Shown: piece by piece, positions 2,541-60,410 of the stretch
Numbering within the stretch: the stretch's first letter is position 1
Layout of the letters: each line of letters opens with the position of its first letter
Assembly: GCF_026151205.1 (NCBI RefSeq)
Contig: NC_087074.1
Coordinates: 620,001-684,000, forward strand
Source: Bolinopsis microptera
Taxonomy: Eukaryota; Ctenophora; Tentaculata; Lobata; Bolinopsidae
Direction of reading: 5' to 3'
Length of the DNA: 64,000 nucleotides
Made by a program: the position numbers and the translations under genes
Notes under the pieces: model-generated
Databases searched by the model: none
Told to the model about the DNA's origin: nothing
Seen by the model: only the letters and a program-made list of their open reading frames with translations

Positions 2541-2576
2541 ACGTAATTACAAATAAATGTAGTAAATTGTACTTAC

Positions 2577-27578: not shown

Positions 27579-28009
27579 CTACATTTTAAGTAGCTGCGCA
27601 ACTGTGGCTCGCTTCGTCCTGTCTTTCTTCAGACATACTTCCAGAATCTGTCTGATATCTTGATACTGTAACTTTTCCGGAATGTTTATAGGTTCAGTTG
27701 ATGTTATCGCTAAATACTTCATCTATGGGGGTTGATTTTTGCGGTGAGGTTTTATAACATTGCTAGTTTGCTTAGGTAATACTCAGAATTTTATTTATAA
27801 TTATTACTTATTCAGATAAATTCCAAGTATAGTTAGCTTACGAAGGAAATGTTAAAAATGAGAGAAATAATAAAAACCTGCATTTTCTCTATGTGTTGAT
27901 AAGGAGTCACGCCAAAACACATTTTAAATAGAATACACCCCAGAGAATACACGTCACTCCTGTATCCCAACACGTTCGCTTCTGCATCTCCAAACGTTCC
28001 TGATAACAT
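27579..28009 (-). CDS. TTK: TTK exons 9-10: kinase C-lobe and C-terminus
   Basis: Exon 9 (28009-27878) encodes SDVYSLGCILFKMCFGVTPY; exon 10 (27716-27579) encodes INIPEKLQYQDIRQILEVCL, then KKDRTKRATVAQLLKM and stop. The protein ends right after the last kinase helix, so the long C-terminal tail of vertebrate TTK is missing. The exon 9 acceptor CCTACCTCAG|ATGTT is the one copied through the 28-32 kb array. Confidence 0.94.
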
Positions 28010-31000
28010 CTGAGGTAGGTAGCGTTTAGTATAAACAACTAGTTACCATAGTTACACTACTAGTTACCATAGTTACACTACTAGTTACCATAGTAACACT
28101 ACTAGTTACCATAGCTTAGTAACACTACTAGTTACCATAGTAACACTACTAGTTACTACAACATCTGAGGTAGGTAGCGTTTAGTATAAACAACTAGTTA
28201 CCATAGTTACACTACTAGTTACCATAGTAACACTACTAGTTACCATAGTAACACTACTAGTTACCATAGCTTAGTAACACTACTAGTTACCATAGTAACA
28301 CTACTAGTTACCATAGTTACACTACTAGTTACCATAGTAACACTACTAGTTACCATAGTAACACTACTAGTTACCATAGTTACACTACTAGTTACCATAG
28401 TAACACTACTAGTTACCATAGCTTAGTAACACTACTAGTTACCATAGCTTAGTAACACTACTAGTTACTACAACATCTGAGGTAGGTAGCGTTTAGTATA
28501 AACAACTAGTTACCATAGTTACACTACTAGTTACCATAGTTACACTACTAGTTACCATAGTAACACTACTAGTTACTACAACATCTGAGGTAGGTAGCGT
28601 TTAGTATAAACAACTAGTTACCATAGTTACACTACTAGTTACCATAGTAACACTACTAGTTACCATAGTTATACTTCTAGTTACCATAGTAACACTACTA
28701 GTTACCATAGTTACACTACTAGTTACCATAGTAACACTACTAGTTACCATAGTAACACTACTACTCTACTAGTTACCATAGTTACACTACTAGTTACCAT
28801 AGTTACACTACTAGTTACCATAGTTATACTTCTAGTTACCATAGTAACACTACTAGTTACCATAGTAACACTACTACTCTACTAGTTACCATAGTTACAC
28901 TACTAGTTACCATAGTAACACTACTAGTTACTACAACATCTGAGGTAGGTAGCGTTTAGTATAAACAACTAGTTACCATAGTTACACTACTAGTTACATA
29001 GTTACACTACTAGTTACCATAGTAACACTACTAGTTACCATAGCTTAGTAACACTACTAGTTACCATAGTTACACTACTAGTTACCATAGTAACACTACT
29101 AGTTACCATAGTAACACTACTAGTTACCATAGTTACACTACTAGTTACCATAGTAACACTACTAGTTACCATAGCTTAGTAACACTACTAGTTACCATAG
29201 CTTAGTAACACTACTAGTTACTACAACATCTGAGGTAGGTAGCGTTTAGTATAAACAACTAGTTACCATAGTTACACTACTAGTTACCATAGTTACACTA
29301 CTAGTTACCATAGTAACACTACTAGTTACCATAGTAACACTACTAGTTACTACAACATCTGAGGTAGGTAGCGTTTAGTATAAACAACTAGTTACCATAG
29401 TTACACTACTAGTTACCATAGTAACACTACTAGTTACCATAGTTATACTTCTAGTTACCATAGTAACACTACTAGTTACCATAGTTACACTACTATTTAC
29501 CATAGTAACACTACTAGTTACCATAGTAACACTACTACTCTACTAGTTACCATAGTTACACTACTAGTTACCATAGTTACACTACTAGTTACCATAGTTA
29601 TACTTCTAGTTACCATAGTAACACTACTAGTTACCATAGTAACACTACTACTCTACTAGTTACCATAGTTACACTACTAGTTACCATAGTTACACTACTA
29701 GTTACCATAGTTACACTACTAGTTACCATAGTAACACTACTAGTTACCATAGTAACACTACTAGTTACCATAGTTACACTACTAGTTACCATAGTAACAC
29801 TACTAGTTACCATAGCTTAGTAACACTACTAGTTACCATAGTTACACTACTAGTTACCATAGCTTAGTAACACTACTAGTTACCATAGTTACACTACTAG
29901 TTACCATAGTTACACTACTAGTTACCATAGTAACCTACTAGTTACCATAGTAACCATACTAGTTACCATAGTTACACTACTAGTTACCATAGTAAACACT
30001 ACTAGTTAACCATAGTAACACTACTAGTTACCATAGTTACACTACTAGTTACCATAGTAACACTACTAGTTACCATAGTTACACTACTAGTTACATAGCT
30101 TAGTAACACTACTAGTTACCATAGTAACACTACTAGTTACTACAACTTCTGAGGTAGGTAGCGTTTAGTATAAACAACTAGTTACCATAGTTACACTACT
30201 AGTTACCATAGTTACACTACTAGTTACCATAGTAACACTACTAGTTACCATAGTAACACTACTAGTTACTACAACATCTGAGGTAGGTAGCGTTTAGTAT
30301 AAACAACTAGTTACCATAGTTACACTACTAGTTACCATAGTTACACTACTAGTTACCATAGTAACACTACTAGTTACCATAGCTTAGTAACACTACTAGT
30401 TACCATAGTTACACTACTAGTTACCATAGTTACACTACTAGTTACCATAGTAACACTACTAGTTACCATAGTTACACTACTAGTTACCATAGTTACACTA
30501 CTAGTTACCATAGTAAGTAGTAACACTACTAGTTACCATAGTTACACTACTAGTTACCATAGTTACACTACTAGTTACCATAGTAAGTAGTAACACTACT
30601 AGTTACCATAGTTACACTACTAGTTACCATAGTTACACTTCTAGTTACTATAACATCTGAGGTAGGTAGCGTTTAGTATAAACAACTAGTTACCATAGTT
30701 ACACTACTAGTTACCATAGTAACACTACTAGTTACCATAGTTACACTACTAGTTACCATAGTAAGTAGTAACACTACTAGTTACCATAGTTACACTACTA
30801 GTTACCATAGTTACACTTCTAGTTACTATAACATCTGAGGTAGGTAGCGTTTAGTATAAACAACTAGTTACCATAGTTACACTACTAGTTACCATAGTAA
30901 CACTACTAGTTACCATAGTTACACTACTAGTTACCATAGTAACACTACTAGTTACCATAGTTACACTACTAGTTACCATAGTAACACTACTAGTTACCAT

Positions 31001-34000
31001 AGTTACACTACTAGTTACCATAGTAAGTAGTAACACTACTAGTTACCATAGTTACACTACTAGTTACCATAGTTACACTTCTAGTTACTATAACATCTGA
31101 GGTAGGTAGCGTTTAGTATAAACAACTAGTTACCATAGTTACACTACTAGTTACCATAGTAACACTACTAGTTACCATAGTTACACTACTAGTTACCATA
31201 GTAACACTACTAGTTACCATAGTTACACTACTAGTTACCATAGTTACACTACTAGTTACCATAGTAACACTACTAGTTACCATAGTAACACTACTAGTTA
31301 CCATAGTTACACTACTAGTTACCATAGTAACACTACTAGTTACCATAGTTACACTACTAGTTACCATGGTTACACTACTAGTTACCATGGTTACACTACT
31401 AGTTACCATAGTTACACTACTAGTTACCATAGTAACACTACTAGTTACCATAGTTACACTACTAGTTACCATAGTTACACTACTAGTTACCATAGTAACA
31501 CTACTAGTTACCATAGTAACACTACTAGTTACCATAGTTACACTACTAGTTACCATAGTTACACTACTAGTTACCATAGTTACACTACTAGTTACCATGG
31601 TTACACTACTAGTTACCATGGTTACACTACTAGTTACCATAGTTACACTACTAGTTACCATAGTAACACTACTAGTTACCATAGTTACACTACTAGTTAC
31701 CATAGTTACACTACTAGTTACCATGGTTACACTACTAGTTACCATGGTTACACTACTAGTTACCATAGTTACACTACTAGTTACCATAGTAACACTACTA
31801 GTTACCATAGTTACACTACTAGTTACCATAGTTACACTACTAGTTACCATGGTTACACTACTAGTTACCATGGTTACACTACTAGTTACCATGGTTACAC
31901 TACTAGTTACCATAGTAACACTACTAGTTACCATAGTTACACTACTAGTTACCATAGTAACACTACTAGTTACCATAGTTACACTACTAGTTACCATGGT
32001 TACACTACTAGTTACCATGGTTACACTACTAGTTACCATAGTTACACTACTAGTTACCATAGTAACACTACTAGTTACCATAGTTACACTACTAGTTACT
32101 ACTTTACTACAACATCTGAGGTAGGTAGAGTTAAATAATTTATATAATATATTTTTTATCAAGTCCTTTTTTTGGTTTAATAAGGTTAAAACGAAGGTGC
32201 ATACTGCATACTCGAGTATACTGAGTATACTCATTGAGTAGTTTCCCATTATTATAGAGTATAACTCAACTACAGTAAGCTTCTAAAGTAACAAGATAAG
32301 GGTACAGATATAATGGCTCCTGGGGTACCTCATGAAACAATAATTCGAGCATTCCTGCTTCACCATGTACGTGTGCTTCACGGTTATGACGTTGCCAGGC
32401 TTATAATTTGAAAATATCATCCCTATTGTTTTTCGATTAATCGAAGCTATCTCTGAAGAATACAATTTCGGGCTATAAATAATGCAGCTACTTTGCCTGT
32501 TCCTCTGTTCACGCTCATATTGTCCGAGCACATTGTTCTCGGCTGGTCTTAATTCGACCGTTTGTACTTCATATCTAGCTGTCCTGACTGTCGTTTTCTG
32601 TTTGAATTTGTAAACAATTGTGAGTCGTGATTTTTTATACCACTGTGAATTTATTTCCGGACCTGCAAGATGGATGAAACATACGTAGACTCTAGCAAAT
32701 TAAACGTAATGATCAGTTACTCCCACCAAAACACTGAGCTGATGTTGAGAATCAGGGACCTGCTATCTTCTAGCAACTACGAGGTATGGGTGGACACTAA
32801 CCTTAAGGCAGGGTGTCAGTTTTTCAAGAATATTGGCAGTGCTGTTATTGGATGTGATGTCTTCTTGTTCATTTTGACTGAGCACTCTGTTGCTTCCAAG
32901 TTTTGCGAAGATGAGGTGTCTTTGGCTCGGATCTCCAACAAGAAAATATTGCCTGTCACTTTTTGCAATCCCATGGATATTTCGTCGGAAATGAACCCTG
33001 GTCTTCGTCTAATTTTGAGTTGCACTCAATGGGTATGCCTTGATCCAAAAGTTGATGACGATCAAAACGATCGTCAAATTGTCCAAAATCTTAACCAAGC
33101 CTTACAATTAGAACATACTGAAAATTCGAGGTTGGATATCTATGATATCGCTTTCTCTGAAGAAGAATCTGCCGCTTCCGTAGGACAAAATAATAAAACC
33201 CTTCATCGAACTGATTGTAATCTATTTTTAGAACCATTTTGGAAGAGACATTTTGGAGAAACAAAGAAGAAAGTAGAGGTCAAGAAAGTGCTAGCGCATA
33301 TAAAGGAAGACTACAAGTTTGATTATGAGAAATTAGGTTTTGATGACACGCAAACGGCCAAAGCTTTGGCTCTGTGGTGCTTTGACTTACAACATCATGA
33401 TACAGTCGTTACAAGAGCTCAATATGACATGCTGGTGTACGCCAATGGATACTTGAAAGGGAAAGAAGAAGGGCCTGATACATTTTGGATACGATGTAAG
33501 GATGGATTTAGCATGGAGCTCACTATGGGGCAAGTTTTCAATGCAGAGAGTTCGGTGCGATACGATTGCATCGAGAATCTTGGCGAGATTAAGAACAAAA
33601 GATTTACCACCATGCTGTACAAATTGCTAAAAGACAGTGATCCAAATATTCGTGCAGTGGCCTGTATTGCTCTTCCCCGCACGGTAAACATGCAGACTAT
33701 GAACACAACAATTGAACGTGTTCTAAAGCTTCTCAAAGACCCAGACAGGTTAGTCCGTCAAAGTGCGTGTGTTGCTCTAGGTATCTTCAGAAAACCTGCC
33801 TCAGTTCCAGCCTTGCTCATCACCTGGAGAAACGATATGATAAGTGATGTGCGCAGTTCAGCACTGAAGTCGCTGGAGACTATAGGGACATCTGAGGCTC
33901 TTGAGGGCATCAAGGTTGTGAAGACACTGCAAGATGAAATTAAAAAACTTGGCATGTAAAAATATCGTTAGATAAGACTTACCGGATTTGTTTTAGCTAG

Positions 34001-37000: not shown

Positions 37001-40000
37001 CATAATCAAAGACGATGATGTTATGAAGCAAACAATCCTAGTATTTGGCTTGGTTCTGCTGTGCAGGTTATCTGACCAAGGTAAAGATTGTCATGTTAAT
37101 TGTAGTAGCTTTAATTTTAGACAGTTCTTGAATTTATTATTATTATCTGCTACACTGCTACAGTCTAAAGCAAGCGAAAGTGTTTTCAATATACTATTTT
37201 TATGTGCAATCAATTTTAAACGTCATTTACTTCAGGACTACTGTGGCCTTCAGTGAGGATAACGCCGGTAGCAGCACAACAATCTAGCATATTACCAGGT
37301 CACGAGGCAGGATATGCTATAGATAACGACTTAAAGACCTACGCAGAAGTAACAAAAGATGGTTCACAGTGGTTGAGGGTGGACCTGGGAGGTATCTACT
37401 GCATCGACCAGGTTAGAATGAGTCACGTGACCAGGTTAGAATGGATCACGTGACCAGGTTAGAACGAGTCACGTGGAATAAACCAAGGAGGCCTTTAAAA
37501 CAATATGTGCAAAAATTGTGATAGAAATAATATATATCGGGTAAAGAATATAATTAGTTAACAATCCGTATCCCCTCCAGGTTGTCTGGTACCGTGGTAA
37601 CAAAACAGAGAGTAACCTAGAGCCCCGGATATACTCCTGCTCAAAGGAGGATTGTACTTGTGAAGGGAGTCACTGTAATGTCTTCCCACTGTCTGTCTAC
37701 TTATTCAATATTAAGTTTTACCAGCACAGCCCAAACAGAAGAGGAGGAACTCTGGAGTGTAAGATCGGAGACTCGGTTAAAGTTATGGTTAACTCTACCA
37801 AAACTGTTGTCTTGCGGGTGTATGAGATGGTGGTTACTGCTATACAAGGTTCGTTAACACTACAAGTGTCACCCCCCCCCACAACAAGTGTCACCCCCCC
37901 ACTACAAGTGTCACCCCCCCCCCACTACAAGTGTCACCCCCCCCACTACAAGTGTCACCCCCACACTACTACAAGTGTCACCCCCCCCCCCCCACTTCAA
38001 GTGTCACCCCCCCCCCCCACTACAAGTGTCACCCCCCCCACTACAAGTGTAACCCCCCCCATGCCACTACAAGTGTCACACCCCCCCCCCACTACAAGTG
38101 TCACCCCCCCACTACAAGTGTAACCCCCCCAACTACAAGTGTCACCCCCCCCCACTACAAGTGTAACCCCCCCCCCACTACAAGTGTTACCCCCCCCCAA
38201 CTACAAGTGGCACCCCCCACTACAAGTGTCACCCCCCCCCACTACAAGTGTCACCCCCCCCCCCACTACAAGTGTCACCCCCCCACTACTACAAGTGTCA
38301 CCCCCCCCCACTTCAAGTGTCACCCCCCCACTACAAGTGTCACCCCCCCCCACTACAAGTGTCACCCCCCACTACAAGTGTAACCCCCCCACTACAAGTA
38401 TAACCCCCCCCCCCCACAACAAGTGTCACCCCACCCCCCCCGCCCCCCCCCCCCACTACAAGTGTCACCCCCCCCCACTACAAGTGTCACCCCCCCACTA
38501 CAAGTGTCACCCCACCCCCCCCCCCCCCGCCCCCCCCCACTACAAGTGTCACCCCCCCCCACTACAAGTGTCACCCCCCCCCCCACTACAAGTGTCACCC
38601 CCCCCCCACTACAAGTGTCACCCCCCCACTACTACAAGTGTCACCCCCCCCCCACTTCAAGTGTCACCCCCCCCACTACAAGTGTCACCCCCCCCCACTA
38701 CAAGTGTAACCCCCCCAACTACAAGTGTCACCCCCCCCCCCCCCACTACAAGTGTCACCCCCCCACTACAAGTGTCACCCCCCCACTACAAGTGTAACCC
38801 CCCCCCCCCACTACAAGTGTCACCCCCCCCCCCCCCCCACTACAAGTGTCACCCCCCCCCCCACTACAAGTGTCACCCCCCCCCCCACTACAAGTGTCAC
38901 CCCCCCCCCCCACTACAAGTGTAACCCCCCCACTACAAGTGTAACCCCCCCACTACAAGTGTCACCCCCCCCCACTACAAGTGTCATCACCCCCCCCCCC
39001 CCCCCCCAACTAAAAATAAACCCATCTACCCAACAGTGGCGGCGTGCACCACTGCTACCCAAACACTCACAGATCTAAAAACAAAACCATTTTTGAAAGA
39101 TTTAAAAAAACACCACCATTGAAAAATCATAAATGCAATCGCATATTCCGAACGTTCAATATTGTACAGTAAAAGAGTTAAGGAACATCAGCTTTATTTT
39201 TAACTCAGATATCAATACCGTAATTTTGAGGGGAACAATTAATTTTACAAGTCATGTGACCAGGTTACAAAATAGACATTTGTGGACGGTCCAAGACAAA
39301 ATCTAGTGAGTGTAAGCTTTAATTAGATTGAGTGTCAGACGAGTCGATTATGAGTATTTTTATCGCGAAATCTTTGCATGCAACAATCAACCACAGATGA
39401 TCTAATCTATGAATATTTAAATTGGCAGTGTAATTAAAGGTACATACCTCTGGTGCAATGTAATTGGGCGTGCCCTCAGGTTGCTTGATTATCATACTGG
39501 TAACCTCGTCTTGTATCATTTGACTGATACCAAAGTCAATCAGCTTCAATTTCCCTTTCACTAACATAAAGTTCTGAGGTTTCAAATCCTGCAAGAATAC
39601 ATAATATTTTAGAGCCGAGCGTGCTTAAAATCAGATGTTGTAAATTTAACAAATGTTTTGACAATCTTAAACCTACACAATATAATGACAGCACAAACCT
39701 TGTGGACTATGCTATAACAAACCTTGTGGACTATGCTATAACAAACCTTGTGGACTATGCTATAACAAACCTTGTGGACTATGCTATAACAAACCTTGTG
39801 GACTATGCTATAACAAACCTTGTGGACTATCCTATAACAAACCTTGTGGACTATGCTATAACAAACCTTGTGAACTATGCTATAACATACCTTGTGGACT
39901 ATGCTATAACAAACCTTGTGGACTATGCTATAACAAACCTTGTGGACTATGCTATAACAAACCTTGTGGACTATGCTATAACAAACCTTGTGGACTATGC

Positions 40001-43000
40001 TATAACAAACCTTGTGGACTATGCTATAACAAACCTTGTGGACTATGCTATAACAAACCTTGTGGACTATGCTATAACAAACCTTGTGGACTATGCTATA
40101 ACAAACCTTGTGGACTATGCTATAACAAACCTTGTGAGTTGTGAACTATGCTATAACAAACCTTGTGGACTATGCTATAACAAACCTTGTGGACTATGCT
40201 ATAACAAACCTTGTGGACTATGCTATAACAAACCTTGTGGACTATGCTATAACAAACCTTGTGGACTATGCTATAACAAACCTTGTGGACTAAGCTATAA
40301 CAAACCTTGTGGACTATGCTATAACAAACCTTGTGGACTATGCTATAACAAACCTTGTGGACTATGCTATAACAAACCTTGTGGACTATGCTATAACTCT
40401 ATAACAAACCTTGTGGACTATGCTATAACAAACCTTGTGGACTATGCTATGGGAGTGTATACAGTGGACTGCTCGCAACATCTGCTGCCACAACAAGCAC
40501 ACCTCGTAATAGGACTGCTTGCAGGGCGACTTTACAAGCCAAGGCGTCTGCTGCATGTAGGTGTGCAGATCTGTCTCTCCAAACTCCAGTACCATACTCA
40601 GACGACAGCGCTCTACTCTAAACTGGGATACAGATATTGTTAGCTTGTACCATACTCAGACGACAGCGCTCTACTCTAAACTGGGATACAGAGATTGTTA
40701 GCTTGTACCATACTCAGACGACAGCGCTCTACTCTAAACTGGGATACAGATATTGTTAGCTTGTACCATACTCAGACGACAGCGCTCTACTCTAAACTGG
40801 GATACAGATATTGTTAGCTTGTACCATACTCAGACGACAGTGTTCTACTCTAAACTGGGATATAGATATTGTTAGCTTGTACCATACTCAGACGACAGCG
40901 CTCTACTCTAAACTGGGATACAGATATTGTTAGCTTGTACCATACTCAGACGACAGCGCTCTACTCTAAACTGGGATATAGATATTGTTAGCTTGTACCA
41001 TACTCAGACGACAGCGCTCTACTCTAAACTGGGATACAGATATTGTTAGCTTGTACCATACTCAGACGACAGTGCTCTTCTCTAAACTGGGATACAGATA
41101 TTGTTAGCGTGTACCATACTCAGACGACAGCGCTCTACTCTAAACTGGGATCTACAGATATTGTTAGCTTGTACCATACTCAGACGACAGCGCTCTACTC
41201 TAAACTGGGATACAGATATTGTTAGCTTGTACCATACTCAGACGACAGCGCTCTACTCTAAACTGGGATACAGATATTGTCAGGATGTACCATACTCAGA
41301 CGACAGCGCTCTACTCTAAACTGGGATACAGATATTGTTCGCTTGTACCATACTCAGACGACAGCGCTCTACTCTAAACTGGGATACAGATATTGTTAGC
41401 TTGTACCATACTCAGACGGACAGCGCTCTACTCTAAACTGGGATACAGATATATTGTTAGCTTGTACCATACTCAGACGACAGCGCTCTACTCTAAACTG
41501 GGATACAGATATATTGTTAGCTTGTACCATACTCAGTACGACAGCGCTCTACTCTAAACTCTGGGATACAGATATTGTTAGCTTGTACCATACTCAGACG
41601 ACAGTGCTCTACTCTAAACTGGGGATACAGATATTGTTAGCTTGTACCATACTCAGACGACAGTGTTCTACTCTAAACTGGGATACAGATATTGTTAGCT
41701 TGTACCATACTCAGACGACAGCGCTCTACTGTAAACTGGGATACAGATATTGTTAGCTTGTACCATACTCAGACGACAGCGCTCTACTCTAAACTAGGAT
41801 ACAGATATTGTTTAGCTTGTACCATACTCAGACGACAGCGCTCTACTCTAAACTGGATACAGATATTGTTAGCTTGTACCATACTCAGACGACAGCGCTC
41901 TACTGTAAACTGGATACAGATATTGTTAGCTTGTACCATACTCAGACGACAGCGCTCTACTCTAGACTGGGATACAGATATTGTTAGCTTGTACCATACT
42001 CAGACGACAGTGCTCTACTCTAAACCTGGGATACAGGTATTGTTAGCTTGTACCATACTCAGACGACAGCGCTCTACTCTAAACTGGGATACAGATATTG
42101 TTAGCTTGTACCATACTCAGACGACAGTGCTCTACTCTAAACTGGGATACAGATTTTGTTAGCTTGTACCATACTCAGACGACAGTGCTCTACTCTAAAC
42201 TGGGATACAGATATTGTTAGCTTGTACCATACTCAGACGACAGTGCTCTACTCTAAACTGGGATACAGATATTGTTAGCTTGTACCATACTCAGACGACA
42301 GTGTTCTACTCTAAACTGGGATACAGATATTGTTAGCTTGTACCATACTCAGACGACAGCGCTCTACTCTAGACTGGGATTACAGATATTGTTAGCTTGT
42401 ACCATACTCAGACGACAGTGCTCTACTCTAAACTGGGATACAGATATTGTTAGCTTGTACCATACTCAGACGACAGCGCTCTACTCTAAACTGGGATACA
42501 GATATTGTTAGCTTGTACCATACTCAGACGACAGGCGCTCTACTCTAAACTGGGATACAGATATTGTTAGCTTGTGCCATACTCAGACGACAGCGCTCTA
42601 CTCTAAACTGGGATACAGATATTGTTAGCTTGTACCATACTCAGACGACAGCGCTCTACTGTAAACTGGGATACAGATATTGTTAGCTTGTACCATACTC
42701 AGACGACAGCGCTCTACTCTAAACTGGGATACAGATATTGTTAGCTTGTACCATACTCAGACGACAGCGCTCTACTCTAAACTGGGATACTGATATTGTT
42801 AGCTTGTACCATACTCAGACGACAGCGCTCTACTCTAAACTGGGATACAGATATTGTTAGCTTGTACCATACTCAGACGACAGTGCTCTACTCTAAACTG
42901 GGATACAGTAAGGTTTTTTTTTTACAAATGTCTCAGACCCATAGCTAGATCTGTGAATTTTAGGCAGACCCACTCGACAGCGGCCAAATTTTGCGCATTA

Positions 43001-46000
43001 TGAGCCCCAAGCCCGATACCCACTTTGCCTCCCAATTATATTATCATCTCGTAACTTCATAATGAAGGTTCCGTTATTCATTTAAAGATTAAGTTTTTTC
43101 GATTCTCGGCACGTAGCCCGACACGACACGTAGCCGGGGCGAAGCTTCTTTGGTTGGCTAGGGAGGGGGGAAGGCGCAGCCCCCCCAGAAAATTTTTGAG
43201 AAATTATGTGTTTTAGACGACATTTGGCTTTAAAGAAATTTTTAGGACAGTAATAATCAGACATCACAATAATACAAAGTTGGGGGGCTAGGGGGGCGCA
43301 GCCCTGGCCTTCGGAAAATTTTTGAGAAATAGGGTGTTCCAGACGACATTTGTAGGACAGCAATAATCAGACATTACAATAATACAAGGTTGGTGGGCTG
43401 GGGGGGGGGGGGGGGGCGCAACCCCCGGAAAATTTTTGAGAAATAGGGTGATTCAGACGACATTTGGCATTAAAGAAATTTGTAGGAGAGCAATAATCAT
43501 ACATCAGAATAATATAAAGTTGGTGGGCTAGGGGAGCGAACCCCCAGGAAAATTTTTGAGAAATAGGGTGATTAAAACGGCATTTGGCATTAAAGAAATT
43601 TGGGGATAGTAATAATCAGACATCACAATAATATAAAGTTGGGGGGCCGGGGGGGGGGGGGGGGGGGCGCAGCCCCCCAGAAAATTTTTGAGAAATAATG
43701 TGTTTTAGACGACATTTGGCATTAAAGAAATTTGTAGGACAGTAATAATCAGACATCACAATAATCTAATAATACAAAGTTGGGAGGCTAGGGGGGCGCA
43801 CCCCCCGGAAAATTTTTGAGAAATAGGGTGATTCAGACGACATTAGGCATTAAAGAAATTAGTAGGGCAGTAATAATCCTGAGACATCACAATAATATAA
43901 AGTTGGTTGGCTAGGGAGGGGGGGGGGGGGGCGCAGCCAATCAGAAAATTTTTGAGAAATTATGTGTTTTAGACGACATTTGACATTAAAGAAATTTGTA
44001 GGACAGTAATTATAATCAGACATCACAATAATAAGTTGGAGGGCTAGGCAGGCGCAGCCCTGGCCTTCGGAAACTTTTTGAGAAATAGGGTGTTCCAGAC
44101 GACATTTGTGGGACAGCAATAATCAGACATTACAATAATACAAGGTTGGTGGGCTGGGGGGGTGGGCGCAGTAATAATCAGACATCACAATAATATAAAG
44201 TTGGGGGACTGGGGGGGGGGGGGGGCGCAGCCCCCAAGAAAATTTTTAGAAATTATTTGTTTTAGACGACATTAGGCATTAAAGAAATTTGTAGGACGGC
44301 GATAATACAAAGTTGGGGGTGCAGCCCCCGGAAAATTTTTGAGAAATAGGGTGTTCCAGACGACATTTGTGAGACAGCAATAATCAGACATTACAATAAT
44401 ACAAGATTGGTGGGCTGGGGGGGGGGCGCAGTAATAATCAGACATCACAATAATATAAAGTTGGGGGACTGGGGGGGGGGGGGGGGCGCAGCCCCCAAGA
44501 AAATTTTTAGAAATTATTTGTTTTAGACGACATTAGGCATTAAAGAAATTTGTAGGACGGCGATAATACAAAGTTGGGGGTGCAGCCCCCGGAAAATTTT
44601 TGAGAAATAGGGTGTTTCAGACGACATTTGGCATTAGAAATTTGTAATTTCAGACATCACAATAATACAAAGTTGGGGGCTAGGGGGGAACTCAGTACTT
44701 GTCACATTGAATAAGTACATATTGTATAGTGGGATTTGGGAATAATTTACGAAATGCTAAAGTCGATTGCCTGTCGTGTCGTTTAATCAAACAGTCATAA
44801 ACACAGCCCACTTACCAGGCGACCATTGCATGGGGACTAGGGGGCTTATTTTTTTTGGGGTTCAATTTTTTTCCGGGGGTCTTCCCCTTGGCTACGTGTC
44901 TGCATTCTAGTTGCCAGACCCACTCTATTAGAGTGCAGACTCAACATTTTGGTTGCCAGACCCACTATTCTAGAGTCCAGACCCACAATTCTGGTTGTCA
45001 TATCTCCTATATTCTAGTTCATAGACCCCCAATTCTGGTTGACAGAGTGAAGAATTACCATTCTGGTTGCCAGATTCACTCTTCTAGAGAGGAGACCCAC
45101 TCTTCTAGTAGGTACAGAGTCAAGACCCACTATTCTAAAATGCAGACCCACCATTCTGGTTGCCAGACCCACTCTTCTGAGGCGAAGACCTACCATTCTG
45201 GTTGCCAGCCCCACTCTTCTAGAGTGTAGACGCACCATTCCGATTGCCAGACCCACTATTCTTGAGTGAACACCCACCTTTCGGGTTGCCGGACCCACTA
45301 TTCTAGACTCTAGACTCCAGACGCACAATTCTGGTTGCCATATATCCTATATTCTAGTTTAGACCCCCAATTCTGGTTGACACTTGACAGAGTGTAGACT
45401 TACCATTCTGGTTGCCAGACCCACTCTTCTAGAGTGAAGACCCACTATTCTAGAATTCTTACCCACCATTCTTGTTGCCAGACCCACTCTTAGCTAGAGT
45501 GAAGACCCACTATTCAAGAATTCTGACCCACCATTCTTGTTTCCAGACCCACTACCCTAAGGTGCAGACCCACCATTCTGATTGCCAGACTCACTCATCT
45601 TGATTCCCTTGATTGCCGACCCACTATTCTGGTTGCCAGACCCACTCTTATAGATTGCAGACACACCAATCTAGTTGCCAGACCCACTCTTCTAAAGTGT
45701 AGACCCACCTATTATTCTAGAGTGAAGACCCACCATTCGGGTTGTCAGACTCACTCTTCAAGGGTGTACGTACACCCACCATTCTGGTTGCCAGACCAAC
45801 TTCTAGATTGCAGACCCACCATTCCAGCTGCCAGACCCTCTCTTCTCAAGTCCAGACCCACTACTCTGGTTGTCAGACCCATTCTTCAAGGGTGTACGTA
45901 CACCCACCATTCTGGTTGCCAGACCAACTTCTAGATTGCAGACCCACCATTCCAGCTGCCAGACCCACCACTCGGGTTGTCAGACCCACTCTTCAAGGGT

Positions 46001-49000
46001 GTACGTACACCCACCATTCTGGTTGCCAGACCAACTTCTAGATTGCAGACCCACCATTCCAGCTGCCAGACCCACTCATCTCAAGTGCATATCTACCACT
46101 CTGGTTGTCAGACCCACTCTTTAAGGGTGCAGACTGCAGACCGACCGTTCTGGTTGCCAGACCCACTTATAGATTGCAGACCCAACATTCTAGCTGCCAG
46201 ACCCACTCTTCTCAAGTGCAGACCCACCACTCTGGTTGTCAGACCCACTCTTGATCTTGAAGCCTGAAGGGTGCAGACCCACCATTCTGGTTGTTAGACC
46301 AACTTCTAGATTGCAGACCCACCATTCCAGCTGCCAGACCCACACTTCTCAAGTGCAGATCTACCACTCTGGTTGTCAGACCCACTCTTTAAGCCTGAAG
46401 GGTGCAGACCCACCATTCATGTTGCCAGACCCACGTCTAGATTGCAGACCCACCATTCTAACTGCCAGACCCACTTCTAGATTGCAGACCCAACATTCTA
46501 GCTGCCAGACCCACTCTTCTCAAGTGCAGACCCACCACACTGGTTGTCAGACCCACTCTTCAAGGGTGCAGACCCACCACTCTGGTTGTCAGACCCACTC
46601 TTCAAGGGTGTACGTACACCCACCATTCTGGTTGCCGGACCCACTTCTAGATTGCAGACCCACCATTCCAGCTGCCAGACCCACTCTTCTCAAGTTCAGA
46701 CCCACCACTCGGGTTGTCAGACCCACTCTTCAAGGGTGTACGTACACCCACTATTCTGGTTGCCAGACCAACTTATAGATTGCAGTCCCACCATTCCAGC
46801 TGCCAGTTGAGTGCCAGACCCACTCTTCTCAAGTCCATACCCACCATTCTGGTTGTCAGACCCACTCTTAAAGGGTGCAGACTCACCATTTAGCGGCCAG
46901 ACCCACGCTTCTCAAGTGCAGACCCACCACTCTGGTTGCCGGACCCACTCTTCTAGAGTGAAGACTCATTATTCTCGAATGCAGATCCACAATTCTGTTG
47001 CTAGACCAACTTCTAGATTGCAGACCCACCATTCCAGCCGCCAGACCCACTCTTCTCAAGTGCAGACCCACCATTCTGGTTGTCAGACCCACTCTTCTAG
47101 AGTGAAGACTCATTATTCTCGAATGCAGATCCACAATTCTGGTTGCTAGACCAACTTCTAGATTGCAGACCCACCATTCCAGCCGCAAGAACCACTCTTC
47201 TCAAGTGCAGACCCACCATTCTGGTTGTCAGACCCACTCTTCAAGGGTGTAGACCCACAATTCTGGTTAACAGACCCACTTCTAGATTGCATACCCACCA
47301 TTCTAGCTGCCAGACCCACTATTCTCAAGTGCACACCCACCACTCTGGTTGTCAGACCACTCTTTAAGGGTACAGACCCATCATTCTGGTTGCCAGACCC
47401 ACTTCTAGATTGCAGACCCACCATTCTAGCGGCCAGACCCACTCTTCTCAAGTGCAGACCCACCACTCTAGGCAACAGGGGTGAATAATATCAACAAATG
47501 GGTCACGAAATCCTCTCCGAACCTCCACGTGGTGTGGCCTGGTTGGCACTAACGGGTGGTGTGCTCTCTTGTTGAGTACAAAGGTTGGGCCTTGCCAACT
47601 CAAAGTTCCCATAGGAACCAGGAAGTCAACACTAACAGCTACCAAGCACCAGGAAATTTCTCTTTCAGATATCAGGTTACAAGATAGTACACACACAAAT
47701 GACGATACATTGGACATTCCTGGTGATTTAGTAGCTCTAAGAGCTACTAAATCACCAGGAAATTCTCTTTCAGCTTTCAGGTCCCATCGAAGTCACCCAC
47801 CACAGAGCTAGGGATTCCAATTCGCTCATCCTGACTACAAGGACACACTGATATTGAGTAGTCCTGGCACTTCTCCCTCCAGTAACCACTTTTCAGGTCT
47901 TTTCAGTTAAAACAGCTAATGCGTAAGGGCTGACACACGCTAGACACAGGCTCGTGATAAGACAGAATTAGGGATTTAAACTCTGACTACGAGGACACAC
48001 TGATAGCGAGAATTCCTGACACTTCTTCCTCCAGTAACCACTTTTCAGGGGACCGGGTTAGCTTTGCCACACTCTTCATTGAAGTGTGACTGGACGCTCT
48101 ACAATCATCTAGTAGCAGCAGAGTTTGACTGACACCCTTACTGGTTCTATTCAGTTTCTACAGCGGAAGATCTCAACACTCGAAAACAGTTCATCTCGGA
48201 CATCCTGCAGAGCTGCTTTTTCACAGCCTGCCCCATTACACGGGGAACCCTTAGATCTACAGTACCCTGGTGGCGAGCATAGCTCACTAAAGCATAGTGG
48301 ACCTCTTTAGTTCTGAGACGCAAAGCTAACCGGATCAGGAATAAACATCAATGCAATGCTTAGGGGATGCAAATAGAACATACAATGTTTATCGAATGCA
48401 TTACTCAATCTTTTGATTCATTTTTTTAGCTCGACGTTACATGGTAACATTTCAGGACTGACATTCCTCCTTCAGGTTAATTGAGGAAATCATACCCGCT
48501 ATTTGCGTTATACATGGCAAGTATCTGGACTTATGATAACTTAGGATCTCCATCAATCATAAATTCCTCTCAGATTCCCAGGCTGCATTTAAAGCGCTTA
48601 ACAGCACCAGTTTTAACTCCAGGTTCGTTCTGAACATCTCAGACCAACTCACTAGGTATTCACATCGAGTAGGACTTCGTTCCAGGACATTAAGGAGTAT
48701 ACGGTAAAGAACTAGCGGAAGAATTCGCAAGGGACGATCAATCCAACAACATCCCCATAGGACCAGAACCCTTCCTCCCAAATAGGCCACACTCAGTGAC
48801 AAAGGAACATTCCACTTGTGATGTTCCTCCACAAATTAAATACAGGAACTTTTATTTTTCTGGAACTCACATCAGATGGCTAACATGGTCGCTTTCAGAA
48901 TAGGTCACAGCCCACTAGTTTATTTTCAGAACGTGGCAAACAACGTCAACTTCAAGACGCAAGATTGCGAACACTTTTCAGGAGAAGCAGCAACATCCCA

Positions 49001-52000
49001 GCACCTCCTCTACAAGTGCATCCAGATCATGACGTTCAGAATGAGAATAATTGGTAAACTCTACCTTAACACCAGTAAACTACATCATATCTTCAAATTT
49101 GTGGAACAGTCGACAAGACTGGATAGGGAAAACTCTTTTGGGTAACCTCCTTGGATTCTTCACCAGGAACTTTCGCTAAACCCCATACTAGGAACTCAAC
49201 CTAGGCCCATCTCCGCATAGAGACATATCTCCCAGGCTTTGACCTTGCTCGGAAGTCCCTTGTCTACCCGCAGAAGTACTACAACGGAAGTGGGTTTGCT
49301 CTGAGACAGGTAGTGACAGCTTCAAGACTCCAGGGGTCTGTTGCATTGATATTTATTATTTTATGATTTCGTATATACTTTGGGAGTCCTGGCGTGCAGC
49401 TAGCAGGAGTTGCATTCTGTGGGCACGGTGAGAAGGCCTCCATCTTAACGTAAGAGGCCAGAAACCGTTGACCAGAACAGAGAGAGAGAGAATATCAACA
49501 AATAAAGATTGTTTAATTTTTGCAAAAAATTTCTCGTCATGTGACAACCCTTCCCAACCCCCCTCAACCCCCTACCCCTCCCCCCCTAAAAAACTCATCG
49601 GATTTTTGCTTCCCGCGAACATGATTTTTTCTGAAAATTTTTGTCAAGCCAGATCTGTAAATCTATCAAATATGTAAAAAAAAAACCTTAGGATACAGAT
49701 ATTGTTAGCTTGTACCATACTCAGACGACAGCGCTCTACTCTAAACTGGGATACAGATATTGTTAGCTTGTACCATACTCAGACAACAGCGCTCTACTCT
49801 AAACTGGGATACAGATATTGTTAGCTTGTACCATACTCAGACGACAGTGCTCTTCTCTAAACTGGGATACAGATATTGTTAGCTTGTACCATACTCAGAC
49901 GACAGCGCTCTACTCTAAACTGGGATCTACAGATATTGTTAGCTTGTACCATACTCAGACGACAGCGCTCTACTCTAAACTGGGATACAGATATTGTTAG
50001 CTTGTACCATACTCAGACGACAGCGCTCTACTCTAAACTAGGATACAGATATTGTTAGCTTGTACCATACTCAGACGACAGCGCTCTACTCTAAACTGGG
50101 ATACAGATATTGTTAGCTTGTACCATACTCAGACGACAGCGCTCTACTCTAAACTGGGATACAGATATTGTTAGCTTGTACCATACTCAGACGACAGCGC
50201 TCTACTGTAAACTGGGATACAGATATTGTTAGCTTGTACCATACTCAGACGACAGCGCTCTACTCTAAACTGGGATACAGATATTGTTAGCTTGTACCAT
50301 ACTCAGACGACAGTGCTCTACTCTAAACTGGGATACAGATATTGTTAGCTTGTACCATACTCAGACGACAGCGCTCTACTCTAAACTGGGATACAGATAT
50401 TGTTAGCTTGTACCATACTCAGACGACAGCGCTCTACTCTAAACTGGGATACAGATAATGTTAGCTTGTACCATACTCAGACGACAGCGCTCTACTCTAA
50501 ACTGGGATACAGATATTGTTAGCTTGTGCCATACTCAGACGACAGTGCTCTTCTCTAAACTGGGATACAGATATTGTTAGCTTGTACCATACTCAGACGA
50601 CAGCGCTCTACTGTAAACTGGGATACAGATATTGTTAGCTTGTACCATACTCAGACGACAGCGCTCTACTCTAAACTGGGATACACATATTGTTAGCTTG
50701 TACCATACTCAGACGACAGCGCTCTACTCTAAACTGGGATACACATATTGTTAGCTTGTACCATACTCAGACGACAGCGCTCTACTCTAAACTGGGATAC
50801 ACATATTGTTAGCTTGTACCATACTCAGACGACAGTGCTCTACTCTAAACTGGGATACAGATATTGTTAGCTTGTACCATACTCAGACGACAGCGCTCTA
50901 CTCTAAACTGGGATACACATATTGTTAGCTTGTACCATACTCAGACGACAGTGCTCTACTCTAAACTGGGATACAGATATTGTTAGCTTGTACCATACTC
51001 AGACGACAGCGCTCTACTGTAAACTGGGATACAGATATTGTTAGCTTGTACCATACTCAGACGACAGCGCTCTACTCTAAACTAGGATACAGATATTGTT
51101 AGCTTGTACCATACTCAGACGACAGCGCTCTACTCTAAACTGGGATACAGATATTGTTAGCTTGTACCATACTCAGACGACAGCGCTCTACTGTAAACTG
51201 GGATACAGATATTGTTAGCTTGTACCATACTCAGACGACAGCGCTCTACTCTAGACTGGGATACAGATATTGTTAGCTTGTACCATACTCAGACGACAGT
51301 GCTCTACTCTAAACTGGGATACAGATATTGTTAGCTTGTACCATACTCAGACGACAGCGCTCTACTCTAAACTGGGATACAGATATTGTTAGCTTGTACC
51401 ATACTCAGACGACAGTGCTCTACTCTAAACTGGGATACAGATTTTGTTAGCTTGTACCATACTCAGACGACAGCGCTCTACTCTAAACTGGGATACAGAT
51501 ATTGTTAGCTTGTGCCATACTCAGACGACAGCGGTCTACTCTAAACTGGGATACAGATATATTGTTAGCTTGTACCATACTCAGACGACAGCGCTCTACT
51601 CTAAACTGGGATACAGATATTGTTAGCTTGTACCATACTCAGACGACAGCGCTCTACTCTAAACTGGGATACAGATATTGTTAGCTTGTACCATACTCAG
51701 ACGACAGCGCTCTACTCTAAACTGGGATACAGATATTGTTAGCTTGTACCATACTCAGACGACAGCGCTCTACTCTAAACTGGGATACAGATATTGTTAG
51801 CTTGTACCATACTCAGACGACAGTGTTCTACTCTAAACTGGGATACAGATATTGTTAGCTTGTACCATACTCAGACGACAGCGCTCTACTCTAAACTGGG
51901 ATACAGATATTGTTAGCTTGTACCATACTCAGACGACAGCGCTCTACTCTAAACTGGGATACAGATATTGTTAGCTTGTACCATACTCAGACGACAGCGC

Positions 52001-55000
52001 TCTACTCTAAACTGGGATACAGATATTGTTAGCTTGTACCATACTCAGACGACAGTGCTCTACTCTAAACTGGGATACAGATATTGTTAGCTTGTACCAT
52101 ACTCAGACGACAGCGCTCTACTCTAAACTGGGATACAGATATTGTTAGCTTGTACCATACTCAGACGACAGCGCTCTACTCTAAACTGGGATACAGATAT
52201 TGTTAGCTTGTACCATACTCAGACGACAGCGCTCTACTCTAAACTGGGATACAGATATTGTTAGCTTGTACCATACTCAGACGACAGCGCTCTACTCTAA
52301 ACTGGGATACAGATATTGTTAGCTTGTACCATACTCAGACGACAGCGCTCTACTCTAAACTGGGATACAGATATTGTTAGCTTGTACCATACTCAGACGA
52401 CAGCGCTCTACTCTAAACTGGGATACAGATATTGTTAGCTTGTACCATACTCAGACGACAGCGCTCTACTCTAAACTGGGATACAGATATTGTTAGCTTG
52501 TACCATACTCAGACGACAGCGCTCTACTCTAAACTGGGATACAGATATTGTTAGCTTGTACCATACTCAGACGACAGCGCTCTACTCTAAACTGGGATAC
52601 AGATATTGTTAGCTTGTACCATACTCAGACGACAGCGCTCTACTCTAAACTGGGATACAGATATTGTTAGCTTGTACCATACTCAGACGACAGCGCTCTA
52701 CTCTAAACTGGGATACAGATATTGTTAGCTTGTACCATACTCAGACGACAGCGCTCTACTCTAAACTGGGATACAGATATTGTTAGCTTGTACCATACTC
52801 AGACGACAGCGCTCTACTCTAAACTGGGATACAGATATTGTTAGCTTGTACCATACTCAGACGACAGCGCTCTACTCTAAACTGGGATACAGATATTGTT
52901 AGCTTGTACCATACTCAGACGACAGCGCTCTACTCTAAACTGGGATACAGATATTGTTAGCTTGTACCATACTCAGACGACAGCGGCTCTACTCTAAACT
53001 GGGATACAGATATTGTTAGCTTGTACCATACTCAGACGACAGCGCTCTACTCTAAACTGGGATACAGATATTGTTAGCTTGTACCATACTCAGACGACAG
53101 CGCTCTACTCTAAACTAGGATACAGATATTGTTAGCTTGTACCATACTCAGACGACAGCGCTCTACTCTAAACTGGGATACAGATATTGTTAGCTTGTAC
53201 CATACTCAGACGACAGCGCTCTACTCTAAACTGGGATACAGATATTGTTAGCTTGTACCATACTCAGACGACAGTGTTCTACTCTAAACTGGGATACAGA
53301 TATTGTTAGCTTGTACCATACTCAGACGACAGCGCTCTACTCTAAACTGGGATACAGATATTGTTAGCTTGTACCATACTCAGACGACAGCGCTCTACTC
53401 TAAACTGGGATACAGATATTGTTAGCTTGTACCATACTCAGACGACAGCGCTCTACTCTAAACTGGGATACAGATATTGTTAGCTTGTACCATACTCAGA
53501 CGACAGCGCTCTACTCTAAACTGGGATACAGATATTGTTAGCTTGTACCATACTCAGACGACAGCGCTCTACTCTAAACTGGGATACAGATATTGTTAGC
53601 TTGTACCATACTCAGACGACAGTGCTCTACTCTAAACTAGGATACAGATATTGTTAGCTTGTACCATACTCAGACGACAGCGCTCTACTCTAAACTGGGA
53701 TACAGATATTGTTAGCTTGTACCATACTCAGACGACAGCGCTCTACTCTAAACTGGGATACAGATATTGTTAGCTTGTACCATACTCAGACGACAGCGCT
53801 CTACTCTAAACTGGGATACAGATATTGTTAGCTTGTACCATACTCAGACGACAGTGCTCTACTCTAAACTGGGATCTACAGATATTGTTAGCTTGTACAA
53901 TGTACCATACTCAGACGACAGCGCTCTACTCTAAACTGGGATACAGATATTGTTAGCTTGTACCATACTCAGACGACAGTGTTCTACTCTAAACTGGGAT
54001 ACAGATATTGTTAGCTTGTACCATACTCAGACGACAGCGCTCTACTCTAAACTGGGATACAGATATTGTTAGCTTGTACCATACTCAGACGACAGTGCTC
54101 TTCTCTAAACTGGGATACAGATATTGTTAGCTTGTACCATACTCAGACGACAGCGCTCTACTCTAAACTGGGATACAGATATTGTTAGCTTGTACCATAC
54201 TCAGACGACAGCGCTCTACTCTAAACTGGGATACAGATATTGTTAGCTTGTACCATACTCAGACGACAGTGCTCTACTCTAAACTGGGATACAGATATTG
54301 TTAGCTTGTACCATACTCAGACGACAGCGCTCTACTCTAAACTGGGATACAGATATTGTTAGCTTGTACCATACTCAGACGACAGTGTTCTACTCTAAAC
54401 TGGGATACAGATATTGTTAGCTTGTACCATACTCAGACGACAGCGCTCTACTCTAAACTGGGATACAGATATTGTTAGCTTGTACCATAGTCAGACGACA
54501 GTGCTCTTCTCTAAACTGGGATACAGATATTGTTAGCTTGTACCATACTCAGACGACAGCGCTCTACTCTAAACTGGGATACAGATATTGTTAGCTTGTA
54601 CCATACTCAGACGACAGCGCTCTACTCTAAACTGGGATACAGATATTGTTAGCTTGTACCATACTCAGACGACAGTGCTCTACTCTAAACTAGGATACAG
54701 ATATTGTTAGCTTGTACCATACTCAGACGACAGCGCTCTACTCTAAACTGGGATACAGATATTGTTAGCTTGTACCATACTCAGACGACAGCGCTCTACT
54801 CTAAACTGGGATACAGATATTGTTAGCTTGTACCATACTCAGACGACAGCGCTCTACTCTAAACTGGGATACAGATATTGTTAGCTTGTACCATACTCAG
54901 ACGACAGTGCTCTACTCTAAACTGGGATCTACAGATATTGTTAGCTTGTACAATGTACCATACTCAGACGACAGCGCTCTACTCTAAACTGGGATACAGA

Positions 55001-58000
55001 TTATATTGTTAGCTTGTACCATACTCAGACGACAGTGTTCTACTCTAAACTGGGATACAGATATTGTTAGCTTGTACCATACTCAGACGACAGCGCTCTA
55101 CTCTAAACTGGGATACAGATATTGTTAGCTTGTACCATACTCAGACGACAGCGCTCTACTCTAAACTGGGATACAGATATTGTTAGCTTGTACCATACTC
55201 AGACGACAGCGCTCTACTCTAAACTGGGATACAGATATTGTTAGCTTGTACCATACTCAGACGACAGTGCTCTACTCTAAACTGGGATCTACAGATATTG
55301 TTAGCTTGTACAATGTACCATACTCAGACGACAGCGCTCTACTCTAAACTGGGATACAGATATTGTTAGCTTGTACCATACTCAGACGACAGTGTTCTAC
55401 TCTAAACTGGGATACAGATATTGTTAGCTTGTACCATACTCAGACGACAGCGCTCTACTCTAAACTGGGATACAGATATTGTTAGCTTGTACCATACTCA
55501 GACGACAGTGCTCTTCTCTAAACTGGGATACAGATATTGTTAGCTTGTACCATACTCAGACGACAGCGCTCTACTCTAAACTGGGATACAGATATTGTTA
55601 GCTTGTACCATACTCAGACGACAGCGCTCTACTCTAAACTGGGATACAGATATTGTTAGCTTGTACCATACTCAGACGACAGTGCTCTACTCTAAACTAG
55701 GATACAGATATTGTTAGCTTGTACCATACTCAGACGACAGCGCTCTACTCTAAACTGGGATACAGATATTGTTAGCTTGTACCATACTCAGACGACAGTG
55801 CTCTACTCTAAACTGGGATCTACAGATATTGTTAGCTTGTACAATGTACCATACTCAGACGACAGCGTTCTACTCTAAACTGGGATACAGATATTGTTAG
55901 CTTGTACCATACTCAGACGACAGCGCTCTACTCTAAACTGGGATACAGATATTGTTAGCTTGTACCATACTCAGACGACAGTGCTCTACTCTAAACTAGG
56001 ATACAGATATTGTTAGCTTGTACCATACTCAGACGACAGCGCTCTACTCTAAACTGGGATACAGATATTGTTAGCTTGTACCATACTCAGACGACAGCGC
56101 TCTACTCTAAACTGGGATACAGATATTGTTAGCTTGTACTTTATTATGCCTCAAATAAGAATTACTAAGAATGATATGCTTCATCGACACGATGATAAAA
56201 TCTAAGGAAACTCACCGTGTGTAAAAATATAATACCGATATTTAATTCTGTTAAATTATAAAATTTTGCAACACGAATAAATATTCAATGAAATATTCAA
56301 TGAAATGGTGCTTCTCATATGTTGCAGAATGCTCCTGTAAAGCTATAATAAGAATCCTGTTCTTTTCGTGGGGCAGCTAATTCAGTACCGTAGCACCATA
56401 CTTGTAGTACATACAGTACAAATGTATATATTATACATGTAGTACATACAGTACTAATGTATACATTATACAAAGTAATAAAATATTCATTATAAAATAG
56501 AATTCTTCACCTCGTGATAAAAGAGATTAATAATACAGTCCTCACCTCGTGATAAAAGAGATTAATAATACAGTCCTCACCTCGTGATAAAAGAGATTAA
56601 TAATACAGTCCTCACCTCGTGATAAAAGAGATTAATAATACAGTCCTCGTTTTTCAGGTTTTGTAAAAGTTCGATCTCCCGCCTCATCTCGTCATTACTC
56701 TGAGGATTGAGCTTTTGCAGGCTCACCACTTTAATTGCCACCATGACGTCACGTGATCTATCTACACCTTTGTAAACCATACAGGAGGCTCCTTTTCCTA
56801 TCTCCTTCTAAAAATAATTTGTCTCTAATAAAATGTAGATTACAAATGTAATATTGTGTTACGTATATATTATGAATAATATTCTGTCTTCAAAAATAGC
56901 AACTAATAAATTTCCAGACTACAGATCTACAGGTACACACTTTAATTCCATCATATTTACTGAAATCTAAGAAGTTAGCTACCTTCCACACATCGAACTC
57001 GTTGCCAGCAATAGTGACTGGTGCCATAGCTCCGCTATAGTGCTCCTTTGCAGGGAATACAGACTTCAAACTGGCCGCTTCTTGCATCTTCTTAACTTGA
57101 TTCTGGGATAATATTAAGATAATTAATCGTGCATCACTACGAATAAAAGATTTTCATCTTTTACCTTGGCTAAATCTAAAACATCGCCAAGTTAACTATC
57201 AGCAAACAAAACCACAACTTTTCAGATATTTATCCTAAACTTACCGCAAGATATTTGTTCTCTTTTTCGAGCTCATGTATTTTATTTTTCAAATCGTTTA
57301 GTTGTCCATCGGGAGAGAATGCTGCTTTCAAGCTTGCTTGTTCTTGCATCTTTTTAACTTGTGCCTGTAGGTAAGTTATCAAAATTAATCAACTTAACTA
57401 GGATGTAACATATCCATTCTTACTTTATATAATTATAGGAGTATCTACACTCATCAGTCGCTTCTTCAATAAAAGTAAATATCAGTTCTCAACTTAACAA
57501 AAGCAAATTAAACAAGTTTCATTACAAACCACCAAATATTCGTTTTCTTTCTTTAATCGTGCTTCCATTTCTTGAGCCTGTTTCTTCAGTGCATTGTAAG
57601 CAGCTTGATTACCTAAAGTGAAACAAGATAATCATCAAGAATATTTCAAGAAGATTTTCAAGGATGGCCATCTTCTCAATTTTTTCAGGATGTCGATTTT
57701 TTTAAAGAGGTCGGTGAAACAAAAACTAATACTTTACTTGGTGGAGTATTTTCATCATTTTCTCCTTTCATCAGATTAGCCTGCACACCTTTTTCGAAAA
57801 ACTTGATCTGAAATTCAACAATCTGTGATACATAGTATAGACATTTTTATACTCAGAAATTGTCATAACACTTATAATAATACTACTACTGAATTTGGTT
57901 AATAAGATTATACAGGTGCAGGGTGGCCCAGAAGTAACTGCCCACACGCAACCCTTTAATAACTCACGTAATTCTTCTTAGAATTGCACAGAAATTTCAG

Positions 58001-60030: not shown

Positions 60031-60149
60031 TGAGGGTGAAGGCCAGGAGTATGAACAGACAGAACAACAAGTTGAGGTGGCACAGTCGTTACAGGCTGCT
60101 ACAGTCGTTACAGGCTGCTACGGAGAGCGATATGTGGGTCTTCGCTGCT

Positions 60150-60410
60150 TCTGATGCCAGTAAGTTGAAGGGGAGGGTGAACATTCTTTTTGACAATAAG
60201 GTCCCCGTGCAGTTTCTGCCAGACACCGGGGCCTCTGTAAATATAATAGATAGGTCAACTTATGATATTTTGTGTCAATCAGGGTCCTACCCTTTATTTG
60301 AAACTAATACCCGAATTTTTGCGTATGGGAGTGATGAACCATTGAAACTTAGAGGGTACTTTAGTGCTAAATTTTTTATCTTGTTTTTATGGATGTATTT
60401 AATTATTTGA
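60150..60410 (+). pseudogene. retroviral-type aspartic protease fragment
   Basis: The frame contains VQFLPDTGASVNIID, with the DTGA active-site motif at about 60222, then ILCQSG and a glycine/serine-rich flap-like region. It ends at a stop at 60408, and no polymerase follows, so pol is deleted after the protease. Confidence 0.75.

Follow-up and report, generated by a model that had tools for sequence, protein, structure and literature searches.

Repeats that cross a splice border have so far been known as single cases and, in human paralogs, as a class. Internal tandem repeats at exon-intron boundaries were described in these paralogs together with 27 intron modifications (PMC2812944). Under the Rogers model, introns are gained by tandem duplication, and the account consulted in part here describes a potato RdRp duplication that crosses an intron-exon boundary and cites a 24-bp AGGT segment present in several copies in fission yeast (PMC4974935). 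Furthermore, when the flanking introns are long, the splice sites nearest across the exon are reported to be preferred, an exon-centric proximity rule (PMC9225289). Among ctenophores, 13% of the Hormiphora genome was assigned to repeats by TRF, and nested intronic genes were found to be common (PMC8527503). The literature searched yielded no description of splice-border arrays in ctenophores, nor a published case of arrays as long as those described below on both sides of one exon.

The genome of Bolinopsis microptera, a lobate ctenophore, has been described (PMC10232365), and its assembly comprises 264.65 Mb in 232 contigs. The window, i.e., the whole stretch of DNA analysed here, is a 64 kb segment of scaffold C3 (C3:620001-684000) that contains a TTK/MPS1 gene, spliced by hand (Table 1). 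Its introns 1 to 9 measure 595, 125, 165, 142, 175, 15993, 845, 11438, and 155 bp. Residues 244-517 of the model matched the human TTK kinase domain (E=1.2e-46), and the NCBI protein P0001 ("probable serine/threonine-protein kinase mps1", 512 aa) was 100% identical to the hand-spliced product, beginning at model residue 8, so that the sole difference lies in 7 residues ahead of its first Met. Among the genome matches listed for P0001, where the best candidates were scored, close ones (65-98% identity) fell at this locus only, and the others were kinases with identity of at most 47%. Exons 4 and 5 (56983-57364) are each 120 bp long and encode similar starts (AQVKKMQEQASLKAAF and NQVKKMQEAASLKSVF), which makes a tandem exon duplication likely. 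Intron 1 carries an inverted-repeat element (57920-58375, ends CAGGGTGGCCCAGAAGTAACTGCCC) with many relatives genome-wide; a query containing it gave at least 152 matches.

Table 1. Gene model, junction arrays, and the insert in the window (positions 1 to 64,000), followed by border-crossing arrays found in other sampled stretches.
Feature	Position	Strand	Unit and copies	Basis or remarks
TTK/MPS1 coding region	27579..58771	-		10 exons, hand-spliced open frame, 519 aa
TTK exons 1-5	58771-58403, 57807-57738, 57612-57530, 57364-57245, 57102-56983	-		hand splicing
TTK exons 6-10	56807-56616, 40622-40434, 39588-39448, 28009-27878, 27722-27579	-		hand splicing
Array crossing TTK exon 6 donor	56507..56648	-	35 bp x4.1	TRF; 33 exon bp within array
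Array block 1, exon 7 acceptor copies	49691..56139	-	58 bp x110.4	TRF
Insert of 6782 bp splitting the 58-bp array	42909..49690	.		terminal inverted repeats TAAGGTTTTTTTTTTACA; 8-bp target duplication GGATACAG
Array block 2, reaching 34 bp into exon 7	40589..42908	-	58 bp x39.8	TRF
Array crossing TTK exon 7 donor	39693..40450	-	24 bp x31	TRF; 17 exon bp within array
Array with interspersed exon 9 acceptor + ATGTT copies	28005..32124	-	21 bp	TRF
Array crossing exon 2 donor, nested F5/8 type C-like (lectin) gene	37406..37475	+	23 bp x3	TRF; 6 exon bp
Array touching LIG1 exon 3 acceptor	15637..15728	-	20 bp x4.6	TRF; 3 exon bp
L017 donor			30 bp x69	unit open, in frame; no family support above cut-off
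L017 acceptor			46 bp x4	exon matches EDC4 C-terminal, 1.2e-13
L009 donor			five copies, variable spacing	found by eye, missed by detector; no family support above cut-off
L021 acceptor			34 bp x9	crosses by ~4 bp; no family support above cut-off
L038 myosin donor			40 bp x22	myosin family support
L038 myosin donor, second			26 bp x2	crosses by ~4 bp; myosin match 1.5e-7, below Pfam cut-off

A preliminary description of this DNA held that four of nine TTK junctions carry an array built from the junction itself. All four arrays were present, their unit sizes and copy numbers in TRF were close to those claimed, and comparison of the units with the exon borders showed copies of the junction; the denominator was wrong, as 10 exons and 9 introns make 18 junctions, of which 4 (in 3 of the 9 introns) have junction arrays. 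These are the three introns longer than 800 bp, the remaining six measuring 125-595 bp. Head-to-tail repetition of units of about 10-100 bp, as reported by TRF, places the TTK arrays among minisatellites, and at three TTK borders the array overlaps the splice border by 17-34 exon bases, as in the boundary tandem repeats of human paralogs (PMC2812944), an overlap that rests on the hand-made gene model. It had also been claimed that each unit spans the border and contains the splice motif. This was true of the exon 6 donor and of both exon 7 junctions, but not of exon 9, whose border is not spanned by the 21-bp unit: the 12 exact copies of CTACCTCAG/ATGTT found there, the working one included (13 for CTACCTCAG alone), are a separate segment interspersed in the 21-bp array, which TRF placed at 28038-32099.

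Exon 7 shows in which direction such an array was copied. Its 58-bp unit holds CTAAC, which we take to be a branch-site-like motif, and then CAG/TTTAGAG...TATG. The exon starts with FRVERCRLSMVLEF, which has the counterparts IRVNKSQLLIVLEF in P0002, a JGI metagenome relative, and YRLDKARVSLVLEY in the EukProt protein P0004. Since the exon part of the unit is conserved in both proteins, it is old coding sequence, which indicates that the array derived from the junction; judged by this conservation, the direction of copying at exon 7 is from the junction into the intron. Moreover, the array is split by an insert with a target duplication, and thus predates the insertion; the insert itself carries 264-bp and 42/21-bp arrays. 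With one 58-bp copy added to it, the mRNA would be thrown out of frame and would reach a stop where the following copy starts, so a working mRNA must use the last of about 150 acceptors.

The same conserved coding sequence bears on whether a satellite from elsewhere settled beside the junctions. Such an origin would agree with a 21-bp unit like that of exon 9, which recurs at 34743-34815 and, more loosely, in two sampled stretches (L020 and L034), and it may be part of the explanation at exon 9. For the locus as a whole we give it a negligible probability, because the exon 7 acceptor unit includes conserved TTK coding sequence and because, in a genome DNA search in which the best candidates were scored, the 24-bp unit was matched at the exon 7 donor locus alone and the 40-bp unit of a myosin gene at one place. 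The latter two units are therefore likely to have arisen in place. Nor do they resemble introners, which have similar copies in many introns: against the single places of the 24-bp and 40-bp units, the 58-bp unit had 425 genome matches in all, and those listed fell either on C3 or within two blocks, one on C5 and one on C1. For the 35-bp unit, the search for copies covered 287 kb of fetched DNA and allowed substitutions only.

The two blocks, at C5:5080812-5153014 and C1:19015000-19031554, raise the question of whether the arrays were made by the assembler and by gap closing. The assembly was produced with wtdbg, gap-closed with TGS-GapCloser, and then polished with Illumina reads (PMC10232365), and the 58-bp array is noisy in the pieces of both blocks that were read. 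Three array pieces from them (L041, L042, and L044) had about 4-5% mismatches, 5-6% insertions, and 2-3% deletions, and the unique edge of the inserted element showed 5.8-6.8% indels in L041 and L044. Paired hits on C1 and C5 had equal scores, and in four pairs, summed by hand among the matches listed, the coordinates added up to one constant, so one block mirrors the other. We had considered the 58-bp array as a travelling satellite with copies on C5 and C1, and rejected this, as the error profile and the mirrored hits point to gap-fill; the blocks are probably unpolished long-read gap-fill from the TTK intron. For the TTK array, in contrast, two measured stretches contained 0.09 and 0.65% insertions, with 1.1-1.4% mismatches, and its insert has a clean 8-bp target duplication. 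In addition, the noisy copies, if they are raw reads, put the array beside the insert edge within long reads. An artefactual origin thus appears extremely unlikely, and the TTK array seems real in long reads, although its assembled copy number may be wrong.

Two other genes in the window had been credited with one such junction each. Arrays do reach the borders of LIG1 and of the nested lectin gene, but the overlap is small (3 and 6 exon bp, respectively) and LIG1 is a weak case; the exon ends of the lectin gene were set by eye, and its F5/8 type C domain matches are below Pfam cut-offs. In LIG1, the reading frame of exon 1 changes at 17320-17400, by a sequence error or a real defect, and a tRNA-Leu gene (15906-15987) lies within intron 2 on the same strand. 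Two long single-exon ORFs, at 32670-33959 and 19133-20374, resemble the second half of P0004, a protein with precomputed TIR and HEAT domains; the domain scan covers P0004, and the window ORFs were compared with it by resemblance. The first of these ORFs sits within intron 8 of TTK. In P0004, TTK sequence reaching to the exon 8 end is joined to a gene of this kind, a hint that the gene nesting in this intron may predate Bolinopsis microptera.

Outside the window, sampling covered ten blocks of 20 kb, placed by hand at round coordinates and spread over 8 scaffolds, together with 64 kb of sequence surrounding myosin exons. Arrays with a period of at least 9 made up 2 to 42% of each block and 38% of the window. 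Junction-derived arrays do recur elsewhere in the genome, as six border-crossing arrays were found: four in the 200 kb of blocks, two of them sharing one block (L017), and two in the myosin loci. Family support was obtained for three of the six exons (EDC4 and two myosin). Scaled up, four border arrays per 200 kb correspond to about 5,300 genome-wide, with a Poisson 95% range of about 1,400 to 13,500. This estimate may be far too high, given that two of the four lie in the same block, one reaches only 4 bases into its exon, and a single one of the four exons has an above-cut-off Pfam match. The impression that the majority of large introns are satellites of their own splice sites fits TTK but not the myosin sample, in which 10 paired introns exceeded 700 bp and none of them had an array taking at least 3 exon bases; one unpaired myosin intron, which opens with an 885-bp array, did have a border array. 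Among the myosin sequences, two adjacent exons (L029 3012-3203 and 3255-3485) match the same motor-domain stretch (105-167 and 102-167) and are possibly alternative exons.

How often chance alone would put arrays on borders was estimated with a detector that demands a splice site in the edge unit and an open, coding-like, bounded exon, the expectation being drawn from 60 random seeds of equal size per array. Codon statistics by themselves discriminate weakly (scores of 5-16 for the TTK exons), so the counts include false positives, and the expected numbers carry the same fault. The detector returned 11 candidates (5 in the window, 2 each in L017 and L038, and 1 each in L021 and L027) and missed the L009, LIG1 exon 3, and TTK exon 9 arrays. 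The L027 candidate (score 17.7) was dropped as too weak, being under all three thresholds, and the window candidate at 59558-59597 is a probable false positive within an ORF resembling gag by eye; the ORFs at 58997-60154 look like a retrotransposon gag, with a putative CysHis knuckle.

At threshold 24, border-crossing arrays numbered 3 in the blocks against 1.27 expected (109 arrays), 2 in the myosin loci against 2.23 (38 arrays), and 4 in the window against 1.93 (38 arrays, P=0.13, with the probable false positive among the four). This amounts to 5 seen and 3.5 expected outside the window (P=0.27) and to 9 seen and 5.43 expected in all samples (P=0.10); over all samples, thresholds 20 and 28 gave 10 against 7.21 (P=0.19) and 7 against 3.53 (P=0.07), respectively. 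The window exceeded expectation at every threshold (5/2.48, 4/1.93, and 3/1.23 seen/expected; P 0.11-0.13), as did the random blocks (3/2.1, 3/1.27, and 2/0.68; P 0.14-0.35). A border enrichment of about two- to threefold would be compatible with these counts. An earlier sample of paired myosin introns (12 arrays in 35 introns, with one crossing array, by 1 bp, against 0.89 expected) was superseded by the detector, since it missed the two L038 arrays, whose partner exon lay outside the fetched stretch; 3 of its 35 hand-typed introns had no GT/AG ends. The same paired-intron method gave 3 crossing arrays for TTK against 0.78 expected and 1 for LIG1 against 0.09, with expectations based on present-day intron lengths, inserts included.

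These counts bear on the central claim of the preliminary description, that junctions act as seeds for the arrays. If they were preferred seeds, duplication would begin at junctions more often than elsewhere, owing to the AG/GT-rich border, to R-loops, or to co-transcriptional breaks. The idea draws on the single window that holds four TTK junctions, one lectin and one LIG1 junction, on the surplus, not significant, in the random blocks and the window, and on the breaks of the 58-bp and 40-bp units, which by eye share 4-5 bases. Nevertheless, the breaks of the 35-, 24-, 30-, 46-, and 26-bp units share 0-2 bases by eye, and break microhomology (0-5 bases) was set aside as not diagnostic. The myosin loci were, moreover, at expectation. 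When 94 arrays of period 15-120 from the 200 kb of blocks were compared with matched non-array DNA, their units had no excess of donor-like motifs (score at least 8; 2 versus 3.0) or of acceptor-like motifs (score at least 6; 15 versus 12.3). With no motif excess in these 94 units, and with borders crossed about as often as random placement would produce, the claim was not upheld, and we regard preferred seeding as unlikely.

Arrays lying wholly within exons were depleted, with 1 seen against 11.3 expected (76 arrays, P=1.5e-4; myosin 0 against 5.13, window 1 against 6.21). For this test 55 of 62 myosin matches were taken, leaving out 7 with internal stops or doubtful ends; one array (L032 3649-3685) falls in one of the matches set aside, within a stop-containing part that lies upstream of the likely acceptor. 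As within-exon arrays are depleted and border-crossing ones are not, selection seems to purge duplications inside exons and not those at borders.

We therefore consider it probable that the arrays are minisatellites which arose from chance tandem duplications spanning an exon-intron border, purged within exons and tolerated at borders. The unit contains the border, and the extra copies sit on its intron side. After one border-spanning duplication, one copy would keep the old exon edge, making the event nearly neutral; later slippage or unequal exchange would add copies within the intron. If the spliceosome stays with the exon-nearest copy, i.e., the first donor or the last acceptor, the mRNA would be unchanged and the intron would grow while the protein remains the same. 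The exon-centric proximity rule would render such arrays harmless and let introns lengthen. Against this explanation, the intron on the far side of exon 6 is short (175 bp), so that this exon does not have long flanks on both sides, and composite arrays of the exon 9 type fit simple slippage less well.

Retention for a function, with in-frame copies extending the protein or many sites tuning splicing, might be suspected from the 24-bp unit, which is open, in frame, and encodes VCYSIVHK, from the L017 30-bp unit, likewise open and in frame, and from the splice AG, which is unchanged in 128 full-length 58-bp copies counted. Yet P0001 is without the repeat, the lengths of the 35-, 58-, 40-, 26-, and 46-bp units are not divisible by three, and the mean change per column is also about one copy, which makes the unchanged AG uninformative. 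We accordingly judge a functional role very unlikely and favor chance duplication tolerated at borders. A far broader proposition, that thousands of Bolinopsis introns carry copies of their own borders, above chance at borders, with the spliceosome ignoring tens to more than 100 identical sites through exon-nearest choice, strikes us as doubtful; were it true, growth from their own edges would be a main route by which ctenophore introns lengthen and would put exon definition to a natural test. Provided that the estimate of about 5,300 holds, this genome would supply many natural constructs with competing identical splice sites, in which the frame shows the winner, and proximity and exon-definition rules would be directly testable in an early-branching animal. 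Border arrays would likewise be, if they are as common as that, a simple route from short to long introns with the protein unchanged.

Compared with described systems, the Bolinopsis arrays resemble the human paralog repeats in that tandem repeats overlap the splice border and alter the intron; the latter were read, in the portion of that report considered here, as novel introns and alternative transcripts, whereas existing introns in Bolinopsis seem to reach kilobases with the protein unchanged (PMC2812944). Tandem copies that include the branch site, the acceptor, and the start of the exon are common to Bolinopsis, the Rogers model, and the potato RdRp duplication, but in the latter two a new intron is made, with both splice sites coming from one duplicated segment (PMC4974935). 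This is not the situation of the TTK introns, where some partner splice sites lie outside arrays (the intron 7 acceptor and the intron 8 donor), about 104 bp of intron 7 is non-array, and intron 6 has different arrays at its two ends. By the proximity rule, the copy nearest across the exon should be the one used; in the part of that study consulted the rule concerns competing pairs of sites, while Bolinopsis presents tens to more than 100 identical sites known from DNA alone (PMC9225289). Hormiphora shares the ctenophore load of tandem repeats and the nested genes, splice borders not being mentioned in the part of its genome report consulted (PMC8527503). In brief, border-crossing repeats are already in print, and it is their apparent commonness in one genome that is new.
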